A stretch of 32,040 nt of DNA. It comes from Aerophototrophica crusticola (lineage in GTDB: Bacteria > Pseudomonadota > Alphaproteobacteria > Azospirillales > Azospirillaceae). This document shows, piece by piece, positions 1,241 through 32,040 of this stretch. Location of the stretch: the NCBI GenBank assembly GCA_001939945.1, contig MOEB01000047.1:1-32040 (forward strand), written 5' to 3'. Each line of letters opens with the position of its first letter. Positions within the stretch are counted from its first letter, which is position 1. The notes beneath the pieces are model-generated. The model ran no database searches. It was not told the origin of the DNA and worked only from the letters and a program-made list of their open reading frames with translations. Position numbers and translations under genes: made by a program.

Positions 1241-1311
1241 TCTGCTTCCCGATCGGGAAGAATTGGTCTTGCCAAGCCGGAAATGGGCGCGCACCTTACC
1301 GATCGGGAAGA

Positions 1312-1420
1312 CCACCGGCATGAGTCAGGGACTCATGCCGGTGGAGGCCGGCGACCGCCGGCCCGCGCCCTCATGGGCGCGTGAGCCAAGCCGCCGGATG
1401 GCGGCGCCCGGCGTCTGAGG
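1312..1420. repeat. Multi-hairpin dispersed repeat, copy 1
   Basis: Four hairpins in series. HP1: perfect 15-bp arms 1312-1326 and 1330-1344 around AGG. HP2: 8-bp arms 1346-1353 and 1356-1363. HP3: CGCGCCC/GGGCGCG (1364-1370, 1375-1381) with loop TCAT. HP4: GCCGCC/GGCGGC (1390-1395, 1400-1405) with loop GGAT. Between HP3 and HP4 lies the motif GAGCCAAG, and the unit ends in CTGAGG. The same order recurs at 8918-9019 and begins again at 31988. It lies between the peptidase terminator and hipB. I do not recognise a named family. Confidence 0.8.
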
Positions 1421-1427
1421 GGGCCGT

Positions 1428-1443
1428 TGATCGGCCAGGATCA
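1428..1443. promoter_or_regulatory. Possible HipB operator
   Basis: TGATC-6 bases-GATCA is a perfect short inverted repeat 28 bases before the hipB start. HipB proteins repress their own operon by binding palindromes of similar layout, so this is a candidate operator. A 5-bp arm is short, and no clear -35/-10 pair stands out around it. Confidence 0.35.
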
Positions 1444-1471
1444 GTAGCCGCGGCATAAAGCGGAGGGCGCC

Positions 1472-1735
1472 ATGGATGCGGCCGAGTTCGGCAGGTTGGT
1501 CCGGCAACACCGGGTGGCCAACCGGCTGACGCAGGAGGAGGTGGCCCTGCTGATCGGCTCCGGGCCGCGCTTCATCGTGGACCTGGAGGCCGGGAAGCCC
1601 ACGGCGCACTTGGGCAAAGCGCTTGCGGCGGCCGAGGCAGTCGGGCTGCGACTGTTGCCAGAGGCAACCGGGCCGGCGCCGGTTCCCCCGGATGATCCCG
1701 GCGGCTACGACCTGCCCAGCACCGGGAACGGCTGA
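1472..1735 (+). CDS. hipB: HipB-type antitoxin, XRE-family HTH protein
   Basis: An 87-residue DNA-binding protein predicted to neutralise the HipA kinase encoded next to it and to repress the operon. Residues about 19-41 (LTQEEVALLIGSGPRFIVDL) form an XRE-type helix-turn-helix of the HipB kind, followed by the usual second half with the G-K-A-L-A-A-A-E-A-VGL helix. The C-terminal tail after residue 65 is proline/glycine rich and probably flexible, as in HipB where the tail contacts HipA. The ATG is preceded by GGAGGG at a spacing of 5. Its TGA overlaps the hipA ATG by one base (TGATG), the classic coupled arrangement. Family assignment is firm; activity as an antitoxin is inferred from the partner. 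Confidence 0.88.
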   Translation: MDAAEFGRLVRQHRVANRLTQEEVALLIGSGPRFIVDLEAGKPTAHLGKALAAAEAVGLRLLPEATGPAPVPPDDPGGYDLPSTGNG

Positions 1736-3051
1736 TGGTCCCGGTCTTCTACGAAACCTTCCTGGTGGGGGAGATCGCGGCGGAAGCCGGGGGGCCGGTG
1801 TTCCGCTATGACCCGCGCTGGCAGCGGACCCGGGGGGCCTTCCCCGTCTCCGTCACCATGCCTTTGGCCGTGGACCGGCATGGGCCGGACAGGCTGGTTC
1901 CCTGGCTGGCCAACCTGCTGCCGGAGGGGGACATCCTGCGTACCGTGGGCCGGGCCATGGGCATCGCGGCGGAGGACGTGCTGGGCTTGGTGGGCCGCAT
2001 CGGCCGGGACACGGCCGGCGCCCTGGCCATCGGCGCGCCCCGGGAGGGGGAGGAGCCCGACTACCTGGGCATCGCCGGCGCCCCCGACCTGGAGCGCATC
2101 ATCAACGACCTGCCCCGGCGGCCCTTCCTGGTGGGCGAGGACGGGGTGTCCATGAGCTTGGCGGGGGCCCAGCACAAGCTGCCCGTGGCCTTGCAAGGGG
2201 ACCGGCTCGCCATCCCGGTGGACGGCGCCCCCTCCACCCACATCCTGAAGCCCGACAACCCCAACCTGTTCGGCAGCGTGCAGAACGAGGCCCTGTGCAT
2301 GGTCCTGGCCCGGCGCGCGGGCCTGGACGTGGCGCCCGTGACCACGGGCCGGGTGGGCGACCGCACCTACCTGCTGGTGCAGCGGTACGACCGGTTCCGC
2401 CACGGGGCGGTATGGCGGCGGCAGCACCAGGAGGATTTCTGCCAGGCCCTGGGCCTGCCGCCCGCCGCCAAATACGAGCATGACGGGTCCGGGACCCGGG
2501 CCACCGGCTTGCCCGCCCTGGCCGGGCTGCTGCGGCGGGAGGCGCGGCCGGGCGCCCTGTTGCCGTTTCTGGACGCGGTCATCCTGAACGTGCTGCTGGC
2601 GAACGTGGATTCCCACGCCAAGAACTACTCCCTGCTGTTCGACCGTGCGGGGGAGCCACCGCGCCTCGCCCCTCTCTATGACCTGATGTGCGCCGCCGCC
2701 TGGGAAAACATCACCCAGAACCATGCCCAGTCCATCGGGGGCGAGCGGCGCGGGCGGCAGGTGCGGGCGAAGCATTGGGCCCGGATGGCGACAGCGTGTG
2801 GCCTGAACGCCAGGGCCGTGCTCCGCCGGGTGGCGGACCTGGGGCATCGGGTGCAGGAAGGGGTGGATGCCGCCGTCGCCGAGGTCAGGGCCATGCCCGC
2901 CGGCGACCATGCCATGCTGCCCGTCTTCGCCGACGCCATCCGGCAGCGCTGCCGGACAGTGGTACTCAACGTCTCACGGGACCCTGGGGCAGGGGAGAAC
3001 GGGCCGGATGACGAGGGGGAAGCGGGCCTGCCCATGGACCGACTGGCCTGA
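1735..3051 (+). CDS. hipA: HipA-family serine/threonine kinase toxin
   Basis: Kinase toxin of a type II toxin-antitoxin pair; E. coli HipA phosphorylates glutamyl-tRNA synthetase and causes growth arrest and persistence. The 438 residues match the usual length. The N-terminal HipA_N domain (about 1-105) is followed by the kinase: the glycine-rich loop SLAGAQHK (141-148) whose Ser corresponds to the autophosphorylated Ser of E. coli HipA, ATP-binding Lys in HILKP (about 169-173), the RYDR motif (217-220), the catalytic loop NVDSHAKN (290-297) with D292 and N297, and the metal-binding D316 in LYDLM. All key residues are present, so the enzyme looks active. Translation is coupled to hipB through TGATG. 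The gene ends only 9 bases before the convergent GH13 gene, with no visible terminator between them. Its true substrate cannot be read from the sequence. Confidence 0.93.
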   Translation: MVPVFYETFLVGEIAAEAGGPVFRYDPRWQRTRGAFPVSVTMPLAVDRHGPDRLVPWLANLLPEGDILRTVGRAMGIAAEDVLGLVGRIGRDTAGALAIGAPREGEEPDYLGIAGAPDLERIINDLPRRPFLVGEDGVSMSLAGAQHKLPVALQGDRLAIPVDGAPSTHILKPDNPNLFGSVQNEALCMVLARRAGLDVAPVTTGRVGDRTYLLVQRYDRFRHGAVWRRQHQEDFCQALGLPPAAKYEHDGSGTRATGLPALAGLLRREARPGALLPFLDAVILNVLLANVDSHAKNYSLLFDRAGEPPRLAPLYDLMCAAAWENITQNHAQSIGGERRGRQVRAKHWARMATACGLNARAVLRRVADLGHRVQEGVDAAVAEVRAMPAGDHAMLPVFADAIRQRCRTVVLNVSRDPGAGENGPDDEGEAGLPMDRLA

Positions 3052-3060
3052 GCGGCCCGG

Positions 3061-4686
3061 TCACTTCCCCTCCACCCGCAGCCAGACATACCCGTACCCC
3101 TCCAGCTCCAGCCGGTCGGTGCGTTGCAGGCGGCCGTAATCCTTGTCCTCGAACAGGTCCACCAGCCGGGTGCCCTCCTCGCACAGGGGCTCCAGGGACA
3201 CGGCCTGCTTGTCCGGGCTGAAGTTGTGCAGGGCGGCGACGCTATTGCCGCGCCAGCGGCAGCGGTGGGCCAGGACCTTGTCGTTGCCCAGGTCCAGCAG
3301 CTCTGTCGGGCCCCAGCCGAATTCGGGGCATTGGCGGCGCATCCTGGCGGCCCGCTCGAACCAGGTCAGCAGGCTGTCGCGGTCGCGGGCCTGGGCCTCC
3401 GCGTTCACCGTCTCGAAACCGTACTCCCCGCCGCTGTTCACCGGGCGGACCAGCTTGTCCTTGCCGACGGGGCTGAAGCCGCCGTTGGGGCCGTCGGACC
3501 ATTGCATCGGCGTGCGCACGGCCGTGCGCTCTTCCAGCTCCAGGTTCTCGCCCATGCCGATCTCCTCCCCGTACCAGATGACGGGGGTGCCCGACAGGGT
3601 GAACATCAGGCTGTAAACCAGCTCCAGCTTGCGCCGGTCATTGCCGAGCATGGGGGCCAGGCGCCGGCGGATGCCGCGGCCATAGGCGCGCATGTGCTCA
3701 TCCGGGGCGAACAGGCGGAAGCATTCCTCCCGCTCCTCCTCGGACAGGCGGCCCAGGTCCAGCTCGTCATGGTTCCGCACGAAGTTGGCCCATTGGGCCA
3801 TCTCCGGCATGTCGGGCAGGGACCTGATGGCCTCGGCCAGCGGCTTGGGGTCCTGCCGGGCCAGGGCCAGGAACAGGCGCTGGTTGGTGATGAAGTTGAA
3901 CATCAGGTGCATGCCGTCGCCGTCGCCGACGTAATCGCCCACCTCCTCCGGCAGCACGTTGGCCTCGGCCAGCAGCACGGCGTCGCCCCGGCGCCATTGC
4001 TGAACGGAGCGCATTTCCTGGATGTACTCGAAATGCATCTTACCCTTGTCGGGGCCAACGGGCGTCTCGATCACGAAGGGGGCGGCGTCGATGCGGAAGC
4101 CGGACACGCCCAACTGCAGCCAGAACCCCATGATCCGCTCGATCTCCTCGCGGACAGCGGGGTTGTCCATGTTCAGGTCCGCCTCATGGTCGTAGAAGCG
4201 GTGGAAATAGTGGGCGCCGGCCTGCTCGTTCCAGGTCCAGGTGGTGTGCTGAACGCCGGGGAAGACCATGCCCTCATGGGCGTCGGCCGGCTTCTCCTCC
4301 GACCACAGGTAGAAATCCCGGAAGGGGGAGTCCTTGTCGGCGCAGGCCGCCTTGAACCAGGGGTGCTCGGTGCTGCTGTGGTTCACCACCAGGTCGACGA
4401 TGACCCGCAGCCCCTTCTCCCGCGCCAGGTGGGTGAACTCCACGAAGTCGCCGAAGGTGCCCAGCCGCGGGTCCACGGCGTAATAGTCGCTGACGTCGTA
4501 GCCATTGTCCCGGTTGGGCGTGGCATAGAAGGGCAGCAGCCAGACACAGGTGGCCCCCAGCCCGGCGATGTGGTCCAGCCGCTGGGACAGGCCGCGGAAA
4601 TCCCCGACCCCGTCCCCGTTGCCGTCCATATAGGTCTCGACGTCCACGCAATAGAGGACGGCGTTCTTGTACCAGAGGTCCAGCAT
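3061..4686 (-). CDS. GH13 alpha-amylase family enzyme, trehalose-synthase-like
   Basis: A 541-residue glycoside hydrolase family 13 protein, closest in pattern to trehalose synthase (maltose to trehalose) or oligo-glucosidases. With the ATG at 4686, the barrel shows DLVVNH (98-103), the nucleophile D200 in GFRIDAAPF, the acid/base E241 in LLAEAN and the third carboxylate D307 in FVRNHDELD, so all catalytic residues are present. The opening LWYKNAVLYCVDVETYMDGNGDG resembles the start of trehalose synthases. A longer frame opens with GTG at 4728, but the ATG at 4686 has AGGGA nine bases upstream, and that motif lies in a hairpin (4692-4716). There is no signal peptide. It is downstream of maoC with a 123-base gap and is convergent with hipA. 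The exact substrate is not certain. Confidence 0.87.
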   Translation of the reverse strand: MLDLWYKNAVLYCVDVETYMDGNGDGVGDFRGLSQRLDHIAGLGATCVWLLPFYATPNRDNGYDVSDYYAVDPRLGTFGDFVEFTHLAREKGLRVIVDLVVNHSSTEHPWFKAACADKDSPFRDFYLWSEEKPADAHEGMVFPGVQHTTWTWNEQAGAHYFHRFYDHEADLNMDNPAVREEIERIMGFWLQLGVSGFRIDAAPFVIETPVGPDKGKMHFEYIQEMRSVQQWRRGDAVLLAEANVLPEEVGDYVGDGDGMHLMFNFITNQRLFLALARQDPKPLAEAIRSLPDMPEMAQWANFVRNHDELDLGRLSEEEREECFRLFAPDEHMRAYGRGIRRRLAPMLGNDRRKLELVYSLMFTLSGTPVIWYGEEIGMGENLELEERTAVRTPMQWSDGPNGGFSPVGKDKLVRPVNSGGEYGFETVNAEAQARDRDSLLTWFERAARMRRQCPEFGWGPTELLDLGNDKVLAHRCRWRGNSVAALHNFSPDKQAVSLEPLCEEGTRLVDLFEDKDYGRLQRTDRLELEGYGYVWLRVEGK

Positions 4687-8044: not shown

Positions 8045-8917
8045 ATGCCCCCCGACTCCCCCTGGGCCCGCATGGCCCCCGCCTTGTTCGTGCTGCTGTG
8101 GAGCACGGGCTTCATCGGGGGCAAGCTGGGGCTGCCCTATGCCGAGCCGCTGACCTTCCTGCTGGTCCGCATGGTGCTGGTGGCCGCCCTGCTGGGGGGC
8201 GTTGCCTTGGCCGTCAGGGCGCCCTGGCCGAAAAGCCGGGGGGAGGCGGGCCGCATCGCCCTGGCGGGGCTGCTGGTGCACGGGACCTACCTGGGCGGCG
8301 TCTTCACCGCCCTGGAGCATGGGCTGCCCGCGGGCACCGTGGCCCTGGTGGTGGGGCTGCAACCGCTGCTGACCGCCGCGGTGGCCGGGCCGCTGCTGGG
8401 GGAGACGGTGACGGGCCGGCAGTGGCTAGGCTTCGGCCTGGGCCTCTGCGGCGTCGCCCTGGTGGTGTGGGAGAAGCTGTCCCTGGGGCCCGGCATGGTG
8501 GCCGGCCTGGGGTTGGCCACCCTGGCCCTGGTGGGCATCACGGCCGGCACCCTTTACCAGAAGCGCCATTGCGGCGGCATGGACCTGCGCAGCGGCACCG
8601 CCATCCAGTACGCCGCCAGCGCCGTGCTGTTCGGCATCCTGGCGCCGCTGACGGAGGACATGGCCATCGACTGGACGGGGGAGTTCGTCTTCGCCCTGGC
8701 CTGGCTGTGCCTGGTGCTGTCGGTGGGCGCCATCTTCCTGCTGTTCGCCCTGATCCGCCGCGGGGCGGCATCCCGCGTCGCCAGCCTGTTCTACCTGACC
8801 CCGCCGACGACGGCGATCATGGCCTGGCTGCTGTTCGGGGAGACGCTGGGCGCCTTCGCCCTGGCCGGCATGGCCGTGGTGGCGGTGGCCGTGGCGTTGG
8901 TGCTGAGGAAGGGGTAG
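8045..8917 (+). CDS. EamA-type DMT family exporter
   Basis: Inner-membrane transporter of the drug/metabolite (EamA/RhaT) superfamily, 290 residues with about ten hydrophobic helices arranged as two EamA repeats; the second repeat begins near the segment GITAGTLYQKRHC. Typical features are FVLLWSTGFIGGKLGLPYA at the first helix and a closing helix-rich LFGETLGAFALAGMAVV motif. The frame is open further upstream to 7964, but that stretch lies inside the palindromic repeat. The ATG at 8045 has AAGGAA at a good spacing, so I chose it. The transported compound is unknown. The gene is convergent with the soluble chemoreceptor gene; its stop codon is followed at once by copy 2 of the multi-hairpin repeat. 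Confidence 0.88.
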   Translation: MPPDSPWARMAPALFVLLWSTGFIGGKLGLPYAEPLTFLLVRMVLVAALLGGVALAVRAPWPKSRGEAGRIALAGLLVHGTYLGGVFTALEHGLPAGTVALVVGLQPLLTAAVAGPLLGETVTGRQWLGFGLGLCGVALVVWEKLSLGPGMVAGLGLATLALVGITAGTLYQKRHCGGMDLRSGTAIQYAASAVLFGILAPLTEDMAIDWTGEFVFALAWLCLVLSVGAIFLLFALIRRGAASRVASLFYLTPPTTAIMAWLLFGETLGAFALAGMAVVAVAVALVLRKG

Positions 8918-9019
8918 AGCGTGTTTGCGCTGCCCGCAAACACGCTTCGGCGGCGACTGCCGCCGCGCGGGCCCATGCCCGCGTAAGCCAAGCCGCGGAT
9001 GCGGCGCCGGCGACTGAGG
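8918..9019. repeat. Multi-hairpin dispersed repeat, copy 2
   Basis: Begins at the base after the exporter stop codon. HP1: 12-bp arms AGCGTGTTTGCG/CGCAAACACGCT (8918-8929, 8935-8946). HP2: CGGCGGC/GCCGCCG (8948-8954, 8959-8965), loop GACT. HP3: CGCGGGC/GCCCGCG (8966-8972, 8977-8983), loop CCAT. HP4: GCCGC/GCGGC (8992-8996, 9001-9005), loop GGAT. AAGCCAAG precedes HP4 and CTGAGG ends the unit. Order, loops and linkers match copy 1, while stem bases differ in a pair-preserving way. Confidence 0.8.
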
Positions 9020-9025
9020 AACACG

Positions 9026-9073
9026 AAGGGCTAGACCCGTTTCCAGTCTGCGGTAAACGGGTCTAAGGCCCTT
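9026..9073. terminator. Hairpin at the convergent exporter/chemoreceptor junction
   Basis: TAGACCCGTTT (9032-9042) pairs with AAACGGGTCTA (9055-9065), and the flanks AAGGGC (9026-9031) and GCCCTT (9068-9073) extend the stem past a small bulge. It ends two bases from the chemoreceptor stop codon and may terminate transcription from both sides, although there is no real T tract. Confidence 0.55.
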
Positions 9074-30836: not shown

Positions 30837-31286
30837 ATGGACCTGTTCACCATCGGCTATGAGGGGGCGTCGCAGCCCGCGGTGATCGCCGCGCTGAAGG
30901 GTGCGGGGGTGCGCACGCTGGTGGACGTGCGGGACCTGCCCTTGTCCCGCCGCGCCGGCTTCTCCAAGAAACCTTTGTCCGCCAGCCTGGCGGAGGCCGG
31001 CATCGCCTATGTCCACCTGAAGGGCCTGGGCACGCCGAAGGAAGGGCGCGTCGCCAACCACAAGGGCGACATGGCCCTGTTCTGGCACATCGTGGAGGAC
31101 AAGCTGGCCACGCCGGAGGCCGCCCACGATCTGGCCCGGGCCGGCGGCATCGCGGGGGAGGGGCCCGCCTGCCTGCTCTGCTTCGAGGCGAGCCATGAGC
31201 ACTGCCACAGGAAACGGGTGGCGGAGCTGCTGGCCGGGCAGCATGGTTTCGGCATCCGCCACCTCAGCCCGGACCCCGCCTTTTGA
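30837..31286 (+). CDS. DUF488 family protein
   Basis: A 149-residue protein of the DUF488 family, whose biochemical role is not established. The hallmark start MDLFTIGYEGAS is followed by TLVDVRDLPLSRRAGFSKKPL (about 33-53) and GIAYVHLKGLGTPKE, and the C-terminal cysteine/histidine segment CLLCFEASHEHCHRKRVAE (about 112-130) is the family signature and may bind a metal. The ATG at 30837 has a very good GGGGAGGGG upstream, and the nine residues before it in the open frame are not used. Its TGA overlaps the TTG start of the 2-oxoglutarate oxygenase gene, so the two are probably made together from one transcript. Confidence 0.9.
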   Translation: MDLFTIGYEGASQPAVIAALKGAGVRTLVDVRDLPLSRRAGFSKKPLSASLAEAGIAYVHLKGLGTPKEGRVANHKGDMALFWHIVEDKLATPEAAHDLARAGGIAGEGPACLLCFEASHEHCHRKRVAELLAGQHGFGIRHLSPDPAF

Positions 31287-31996
31287 CCCCCGACGTTCCC
31301 ACCCGCCTCACCGCCCTGGACTGGCCCGCCCTGCTGGCGGAGCTGGATGCCCGTGGCGCCGCCCTGACCCCGGCGATACTGACAGCGGAAGAGTGTGCCG
31401 CCCTGACCGCCCTGTTCGACCGGGACGCGCTGTTCCGCAGCACGGTGGACATGGCCCGGCATGGCTATGGCGAGGGCCGTTACCGCTACTTTGCCGACCC
31501 GCTGCCGCCGCTGGTGGCCGGGTTGCGGGAAGCCGCCTACCGCCACCTCGCCCCCTTGGCCCGGGATTGGGCGCCCAAGGTCGGGATCGGCCACCCCATC
31601 CCCGACACGTTGCCTGAGTTCCGGCAAGTCTGCGCCGCCGCCGGCCAGACGCGGCCCACGCCCCTGCTGCTGCGCTATGGGGCGGGCGGGTGGAACGCCC
31701 TGCACCAGGACATCTATGGCGGCGTGGTCTTCCCCATCCAGATAGCGATCCTGCTGTCCCGCCCGGGCGAGGATTTCACGGGGGGCGAGTTCCTGTTGAC
31801 CGAGCAGCGCCCCCGGATGCAGAGCCGGGGGGAGGCCTTCGCCCCCACCCAGGGCCAAGCCATCCTGTTCGCCACCCGCCACCGCCCGGCCCGGGGCGCC
31901 CGAGGCACCTACCGCACCAACCTGCGCCACGGGGTGGCGACGGTGCGGTCAGGCACCCGCCACACGCTGGGCATCATCTTCCACGATGCGGAATGA
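31283..31996 (+). CDS. 2-oxoglutarate/Fe(II)-dependent oxygenase
   Basis: Non-haem iron oxygenase of 237 residues with the prolyl-hydroxylase-like double-stranded beta-helix. The iron ligands are visible as H141 and D143 in NALHQDIYG and H216 in NLRHGV; R226, ten residues after H216, probably holds 2-oxoglutarate. GGEFLLTEQRP and GQAILFATRHRP are further family segments. The N-terminal helical part has ILTAEECAALTALFD, the usual opening of this domain. The start is TTG at 31283, overlapping the DUF488 stop codon as TTGA, with no separate ribosome-binding site; coupling is likely. The substrate is unknown. The stop codon lies inside the first stem of repeat copy 3. Confidence 0.9.
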   Translation: MTPDVPTRLTALDWPALLAELDARGAALTPAILTAEECAALTALFDRDALFRSTVDMARHGYGEGRYRYFADPLPPLVAGLREAAYRHLAPLARDWAPKVGIGHPIPDTLPEFRQVCAAAGQTRPTPLLLRYGAGGWNALHQDIYGGVVFPIQIAILLSRPGEDFTGGEFLLTEQRPRMQSRGEAFAPTQGQAILFATRHRPARGARGTYRTNLRHGVATVRSGTRHTLGIIFHDAE

Positions 31997-32040
31997 GCCG
32001 CAGGCTCATTCCGCAAGGCCGGCGACCGCCGGCCCGCGCC
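31988..32040. repeat. Multi-hairpin dispersed repeat, copy 3 (cut by window end)
   Basis: HP1: 11-bp arms GCGGAATGAGC and GCTCATTCCGC (31988-31998, 32004-32014); the left arm contains the last codons and the TGA of the oxygenase gene. From 32016 to the end, 25 bases are identical to 1345-1369 of copy 1, covering HP2 and the beginning of HP3. The rest of the element lies outside the window. Confidence 0.8.

Follow-up and report, generated by a model that had tools for sequence, protein, structure and literature searches.

The hairpin arrays at this locus raise the question of what kind of element they represent, how they came to be where they are, and whether selection keeps their stems paired. 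The stretch analyzed here (the window) is the entire contig C271, 32,040 bases long, of a genome of 6.06 Mb in 328 contigs (G000), and contains two full copies of the repeat and a third that is truncated at the contig end. Our proposal, which we consider probable, is that the arrays belong to a non-autonomous, MITE-like family of Niveispirillum and relatives, with a core that acts through its fold. Each unit, approximately 100-170 bp long, has terminal hairpins, which bear the inverted repeats, and between them a core made up of HP2, HP3, and HP4, in which loops, linker, and tail are conserved. Whether the folding of short intergenic repeats is under selection can seldom be tested, common as such repeats are; here, compensated and broken changes can be counted directly, in the presence or absence of a donor copy, thanks to the very many copies in close relatives, the empty sites and orthologues, the freely combining stems, and the two kinds of ends.

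A dispersed family of multi-hairpin units

Folding confirmed the four-hairpin layout that a first-pass annotation had described at 1312-1420 and 8918-9019 and had seen to start again at 31988 (Table 1). The native fold was more stable than all 200 dinucleotide shuffles in copy 1 (z −5.71), copy 2 (z −4.55), and the truncated copy 3 (z −5.28). Copies 1 and 2 extend past HP4 through a fifth hairpin to the approximate unit bounds in Table 1. The ends of copy 1 are decayed (left GACCA versus TACCA, right CGGCA versus TGGTA), and its flanking triplets, GAA at 1307-1309 and TAA at 1456-1458, are identical at two of three bases. Copy 2 is bounded by TA at 8915-8916 and at 9064-9065, the left of which is part of the TAG stop codon of the EamA gene; among the matches listed, 11 places in G000 align to copy 2 across exactly 8915/8916-9065. 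As originally reported, copy 1 has the HP3 arms CGCGCCC/GGGCGCG and copy 2 has CGCGGGC/GCCCGCG; both arms changed and pairing was kept. The repeat may account for breaks in the assembly, and the window itself stops inside a copy.

Table 1. Repeat copies and neighboring genes in the window
Feature	Position	Strand	Description	Basis
Copy 1, whole unit	1310..1455	+	Long type A form, 146 bases	Comparison with 146-bp units
Copy 1, HP1	1312..1344	+	15 pairs	Fold
Copy 1, core	1345..1420	+	HP2 1346-1363, HP3 1364-1381, linker 1382-1389, HP4 1390-1405, terminal tail CTGAGG	Fold; covariance model E 4.8e-15
Copy 1, HP5	1422..1449	+	Imperfect palindrome at GTTGATC..GATCAG	Sequence; intact in other copies
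Copy 2, whole unit	8917..9063	+	Type B form, 147 bases	
Copy 2, HP1	8917..8947	+	13 pairs	Fold
Copy 2, core	8947..9019	+	HP2 8949-8964, HP3 8965-8984, HP4 8992-9005, tail to CTGAGG	Fold; covariance model E 8.0e-13
Copy 2, HP5	9034..9063	+	GACCCGTTT..AAACGGGTC	
Copy 3	31987..32040	+	Incomplete at contig end: HP1 31987-32015, HP2 32017-32034, HP3 start	
Peptidase M3 gene	ends 1188		Upstream neighbor of copy 1	
HipB/HipA-like pair	1472-3051		Immediate downstream neighbor of copy 1	Pfam HTH_31, HipA_C, Couple_hipA
EamA transporter gene	stop TAG 8915-8917		Left neighbor of copy 2	
Chemotaxis-receptor gene			Convergent; other neighbor of copy 2	
Oxygenase gene	31283-31996		Stop codon within 5' arm of copy 3 HP1	

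The annotation had supposed a dispersed family, and this is what the genome-wide searches found. A covariance model (R1) built from 18 copies of HP2-HP4 matched at least 150 places in G000 (E of 1e-15 to 9e-5) and 93 places in the congeneric genome G005; the weakest matches, with E near 1e-4, may include chance ones. R1 matches were present in 21 of 39 other genomes, i.e., 10/10 of the same genus (14 to at least 120 matches each), 8/13 of the same family, and 3/16 of the same class. Several assemblies are present both under a G number and as a named record, so that the two sets do not represent independent lineages; only identical contexts were dropped. An exact pattern with free stem bases had 22 matches in G000, while the reversed pattern, used as a control, had none. 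Among 183 copies found by an anchor search, 150 had HP3 and 135 had HP3 and HP2 under a perfect-stem rule. A strong adjoining HP1 was found in 90 of these 135 copies, compared with three when the upstream sequence was shuffled; HP1 is not universal among copies.

More distant records share less of the structure. In Telmatospirillum, Roseomonas-like, Nitrospirillum, and two Sphingomonas-like records, the 3' module is shared and the upstream hairpins are different; four of the 54 stretches retrieved (L026, L027, L040, and L041) were judged by eye to be chance or degraded matches. In its strict form, the 3' module occurred in only 4 of 151 other genomes sampled across the class and is, thus, not general there. 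In Neoroseomonas marina (L024, 3699-3940), two tandem 3' modules and a further hairpin immediately follow the 6S RNA gene (minus strand, 3949-4103) at its 3' end. With 0 matches in 50,697 phage records and 3 in 72,556 plasmid records (two Niveispirillum, one Azospirillum), carriage by phages or widely by plasmids was rejected. The element positions on the Niveispirillum cyanobacteriorum plasmid NZ_CP025614 are those on contig C4 of G005.

The annotation named no family with this structure, and neither did Rfam 15, which had no match in the window at gathering score; the best sub-threshold match, at copy 1, reached 21.1 bits versus the 50 needed. Over 17 related loci, Rfam matched only 5S RNA, 6S RNA, and two tRNAs, and a known RNA family was rejected on these grounds. 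In a literature search covering few subscription papers, we found no title or abstract opening describing the repeat, and the family may already have been published.

Unit ends, target duplications, and empty sites

The units fall into two types by their ends. Type A units start with TACCA and end with TGGTA and are 146-159 bp long in clear cases. Their flanking triplets are equal in 14 of 26 candidates, with 4.5 expected; among the 17 with TNA on both sides, the triplets are equal in 14, with 5.3 expected, a count reached in none of 10,000 shuffles. These 14 units are from G000 (nine), an uncultured Rhodospirillales bin (L046 and L049), a Telmatospirillum MAG (L068), and g2, a genus of the same family (L117 in G011 and L118 in G023). 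Type B units have the ends GAGC and GGTC and are 146-171 bp long. Our rule for full units, a regular expression, was passed by 17 of 30 loci and visibly missed some full units; of the 17 that passed, 14 are flanked by TA at each end, although so short and invariant a motif cannot alone demonstrate duplication. The same HP2-HP3-HP4 core lies inside both types of unit.

Relatives provided clean empty sites for one supported insertion of each type, i.e., L197 (empty in G010) and L195 (empty in G003 and G008). At L197, the G005 unit lies between TTA and TCA, which differ by one base; G010 has a single TCA and no unit, with sides 95 and 92% identical to those in G005. G003 also lacks the unit, but its left side differs. 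At the same site in G004 (C280, L254), TTGGTATCA is retained without the unit and may be a right-end footprint, i.e., a remnant of a deleted unit; for this reason, loss is an alternative to insertion at L197. At L195, a short type B unit in G005 lies between two TA, where G003 and G008 have a single TA; in G010 and G004, the spacing of 198 and 182 bases resembles that of an occupied site. Absences were also seen at L176 (in G003, G004, G008, and G010) and at L179, L196, and L199 (in G004 and G010), with junctions that are not clean. The annotation had not noted the inverted repeats at the unit ends, the duplicated targets, or the sites that are empty in relatives; based on these, we interpret the units as MITE-like insertions. 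Their mobility is well supported, although some absences may be losses. At 100-170 bp, the units are too short for a transposase gene, and we suggest that transposases would have moved them in trans. A search for core-free ends in G000 and five relatives showed no transposase, Y1 being the one family searched for, in G000 only, and none was recognized among the ORFs of at least 150 aa read by eye in a 6.5-kb interval between paired ends in G009.

Type B loci vary in length and content. L324, L325, L331, L339, and L350 are 170-171 bp long versus 146-147 bp and have a common extra stretch of ~24 bases. A solitary type B terminal hairpin, GCGTGTTTACG..CGTAAACACGC, lies without a core at L343 (~1501-1535; G000:C152:2280). 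At L344 (~1501-1590; G000:C183:42542), the tail of a type B unit directly follows the 5' portion of HP2, as would result from a deletion between short GGCGACTG repeats.

The repeat is of the known MITE or intergenic-repeat kind. The ERIC, RUP, and Correia elements are likewise intergenic, non-autonomous repeats of 100-160 bp, some of which have a TA target as type B does; they come from other bacteria and have other sequences, and we liken them by general description only. To our knowledge, stem turnover at the present scale is not known for these elements. The RIME and ABC repeats of rhizobia, also likened by description only, are alphaproteobacterial intergenic palindromes of ~100 bp. Compared with prokaryotic MITEs as described in a review (PMC10969869), the present repeat is similar in its small unit, inverted ends (TACCA/TGGTA in type A, GAGC/GGTC in type B), target duplication, many intergenic copies, and predicted stem-loop transcripts. 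It differs in that MITEs, according to the same text, are typically AT-rich, whereas the present core has a GC content of 0.74-0.86 in most alignment rows, and in having one structured core with exchangeable stems in two end types and no parent insertion sequence found.

The extragenic, palindromic, and very numerous copies also resemble REP/BIME-type elements mobilized by a RAYT (Y1) transposase. The GTAG and CGTC families of REP, as described in PMC3733652, are palindromic, extragenic, and alphaproteobacterial, like the present repeat; however, they are single hairpins of 20-40 bp with a tag, whereas the present units are 100-170 bp long, have inverted ends, and occur in a genome without a Y1 transposase. 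The Y1 domain PF01797 had no match in G000, which is 99.99% complete, and was present in 5 of 14 control genomes, E. coli and Caulobacter included. Given this absence and the unit anatomy (long unit, inverted ends, and target duplications), we rejected a REP/RAYT origin, which we consider hardly credible.

Pairing of the stems and its possible causes

The annotation had described stems that covary between conserved loops and linkers; the larger sample agrees with it. None of the outcomes that would have spoken against the annotation was encountered, neither a scarcity of further copies nor a lack of covariation nor a match to a described family. In an alignment of 109 matches, of which 97 are distinct, 99.4% of the 1,896 stem cells are paired and two-sided changes occur at 15 of 20 pairs (97 distinct copies); because the 98 alignment sources were mostly high-scoring matches, 99.4% is an upper estimate. 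The covariation score was 0.445 versus 0.095 for shuffled alignments and 0.03-0.08 for slid partners, and none of 500 shuffles attained any of the five observed values. Because the covariance model favors paired copies, we also ran an anchor test with free arms. For HP4, with the anchors GCCAAG, GGAT, CGCC, and TGAGG fixed and the arms unconstrained, 139 copies gave 18 distinct arm pairs, of which 15 are perfect; pairing was 96.7% versus 62.7% in shuffles, with a maximum of 76.7% in 2,000 shuffles. For HP3, pairing was 94.4% over nine distinct six-base pairs (58.8% shuffled) and 81.7% over 25 seven-base pairs (58.4% shuffled), some of which are probably unrelated matches. Two-sided, pair-keeping changes, thus, exceed the controls in dispersed copies in both the alignment and the free-arm tests. 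Selection for folding is the simplest reading of the free-arm pairing together with the conserved loops.

The orthologous sites provide the second line of evidence. They were found by blastn, for which one query batch fully covered five of eight loci. L181 of G005 is also present in G004 and G010; G008 has a decayed copy, and G002 and G009 have none. L186 is common to G010 and G003 and absent in G008, while L201 is common to G008 and absent in G004. L202 is common to G003, G008, and G010; G001 has it without HP3, G004 has only the 3' part, and in G002 and G009 it was not found. At L194, the copy is decayed in G008 and G003 has none, and at L192, G004, G010, and G008 have the 3' module alone. 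Nine orthologous comparisons with G005 gave 8 two-sided kept pairs (three at L181 in G010, two at L186 in G010, and one each at L202 in G008, G003, and G001) versus 10 broken pairs (two at L186 in G003, one at L201 in G008, and two, three, and two at L202 in G008, G003, and G001, respectively); both counts are inflated at L202 because the predicted fold has pairs outside the consensus. Orthologous copies also show lost hairpins. At L181, G004 differs from G005 at one of 93 bases, and G010 differs at two HP3 pairs and one HP4 pair, a change that looks like block replacement of hairpins.

Such block replacement could produce part of the covariation. In a rather unlikely account, the units are MITEs and the covariation is mutational, i.e., gene conversion and arm-to-arm template switching swap whole short hairpins, and the fold is functionless. 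The block-like HP3 change at L181 of G010 fits this account, as do the occurrence of that very stem (CGCGCC/GGCGCG) elsewhere in the genus (L187 of G005), the many combinations of HP3 types with HP4 types across copies, and the decay of copies at some loci. G-T pairs, too, are scarce, at 11 of 1,896 stem cells. As to an RNA versus a DNA fold, G-T occurs in 11 and A-C in 5 of these cells, in an alignment whose model favors G-T. What this account does not readily explain is that the stems turn over while loops, linker, and tail remain conserved, and that pairing is 96.7% even with free arms. That the covariation reflects selection on folded RNA or cruciform DNA, as the annotation suggested, is one possible reading: pairing beats the controls, but hairpins seem to be replaced as blocks, and among orthologues 8 pairs were kept versus 10 broken. 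In the proposal that we favor, the core would act through its folded shape, stems would for this reason change mostly in ways that preserve pairing, and exchange between copies probably provides some of them ready-paired.

We tentatively extend this proposal with a reading that we hold to be possible yet doubtful, namely that a single structured core, whose identity lies in its shape, loops, and linker and not in the sequence of its stems, was taken up by two transposition systems (TNA/TACCA and TA/GAGC) because the fold benefits carrier or host, and spreads as MITE cargo among Alphaproteobacteria. Should the core prove functional, separate transposon types would share it as a structural module, and many genes would have it as a candidate RNA 3'-end element.

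Position at gene ends and the putative role of the core

Gene context was determined for 104 non-redundant copies, 74 from G000 and 30 from G005, after three extra L096 matches and repeated contexts were dropped; genes were called by a codon-usage script trained on the window, which missed some short genes. None of the 104 copies lies inside a predicted gene; 35 are in convergent, 59 in tandem, and 8 in divergent gaps, and 2 are unassigned. In a separate count, divergent gaps are rarer with the element (6/96 element-bearing versus 54/178 other gaps; P 1.3e-6) and convergent gaps commoner (34/96 versus 23/178; P 2.1e-5). Exactly 35 bases 5' of the core, at the type A end, eight G000 copies have the end of a sense stop codon; in six, an antisense stop codon lies exactly 35 bases 3' of the core. 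Of the 20 G005 copies that face the end of an antisense gene, 16 have its stop codon at most 20 bases from the tail. Because TNA covers TAA and TGA and, on the opposite strand, TTA and TCA, a target duplication can restore a stop codon, and we infer that TNA duplication did so. Insertion would then be tolerated chiefly at the 3' ends of genes, where a stop codon can supply the TNA or TA target and is restored by the duplication. GTAG repeats, according to PMC3733652, often provide stop codons. A strand bias along the G005 chromosome, whose origin was not located, was set aside (runs test on 66 copies, z −1.9).

The bias to gene 3' ends would also be expected of a mainly vertically kept cis-regulatory RNA, i.e., a terminator or 3'-end stabilizer, to which the transposon-like ends are secondary. 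This explanation, which we regard as distinctly improbable, is in line with the orthologous copies with conserved cores at L181, L186, and L202, the retention of the 3' module alone at the L192 site in three relatives, and the two modules past the 6S RNA gene of Neoroseomonas. It is at odds with the near-identical long copies with equal TNA triplets and with the empty sites in relatives. Moreover, the EamA and chemotaxis genes that flank copy 2 are at separate places in all 10 same-genus relatives, and no core was found in the 260 bases after either gene in any of the 10 (one of these stretches is cut by a contig end), arguing that copy 2 is not shared with them. Nor are the stems followed by a T run.

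We nevertheless prefer, as the function of the core within a mobile unit, an RNA role at gene 3' ends, which is suggested by the position, the conservation of loops and linker on one strand, and the persistence of the 3' module in the L192 relatives and L024. The core would most likely act in transcripts leaving the flanking genes, where the hairpin array would shield or end the RNA. A search for intrinsic terminators (hairpin plus T run) had no match within copies 1 and 2 and one match before copy 1, at 1245-1260. This terminator-like palindrome, CTTCCCGATCGGGAAG, lies 3' of the peptidase gene; CGATCGGGAAGA is seen again at 1300-1311, immediately 5' of copy 1, and GCCAAGCCG and ATGGGCGCG are also present between the two.
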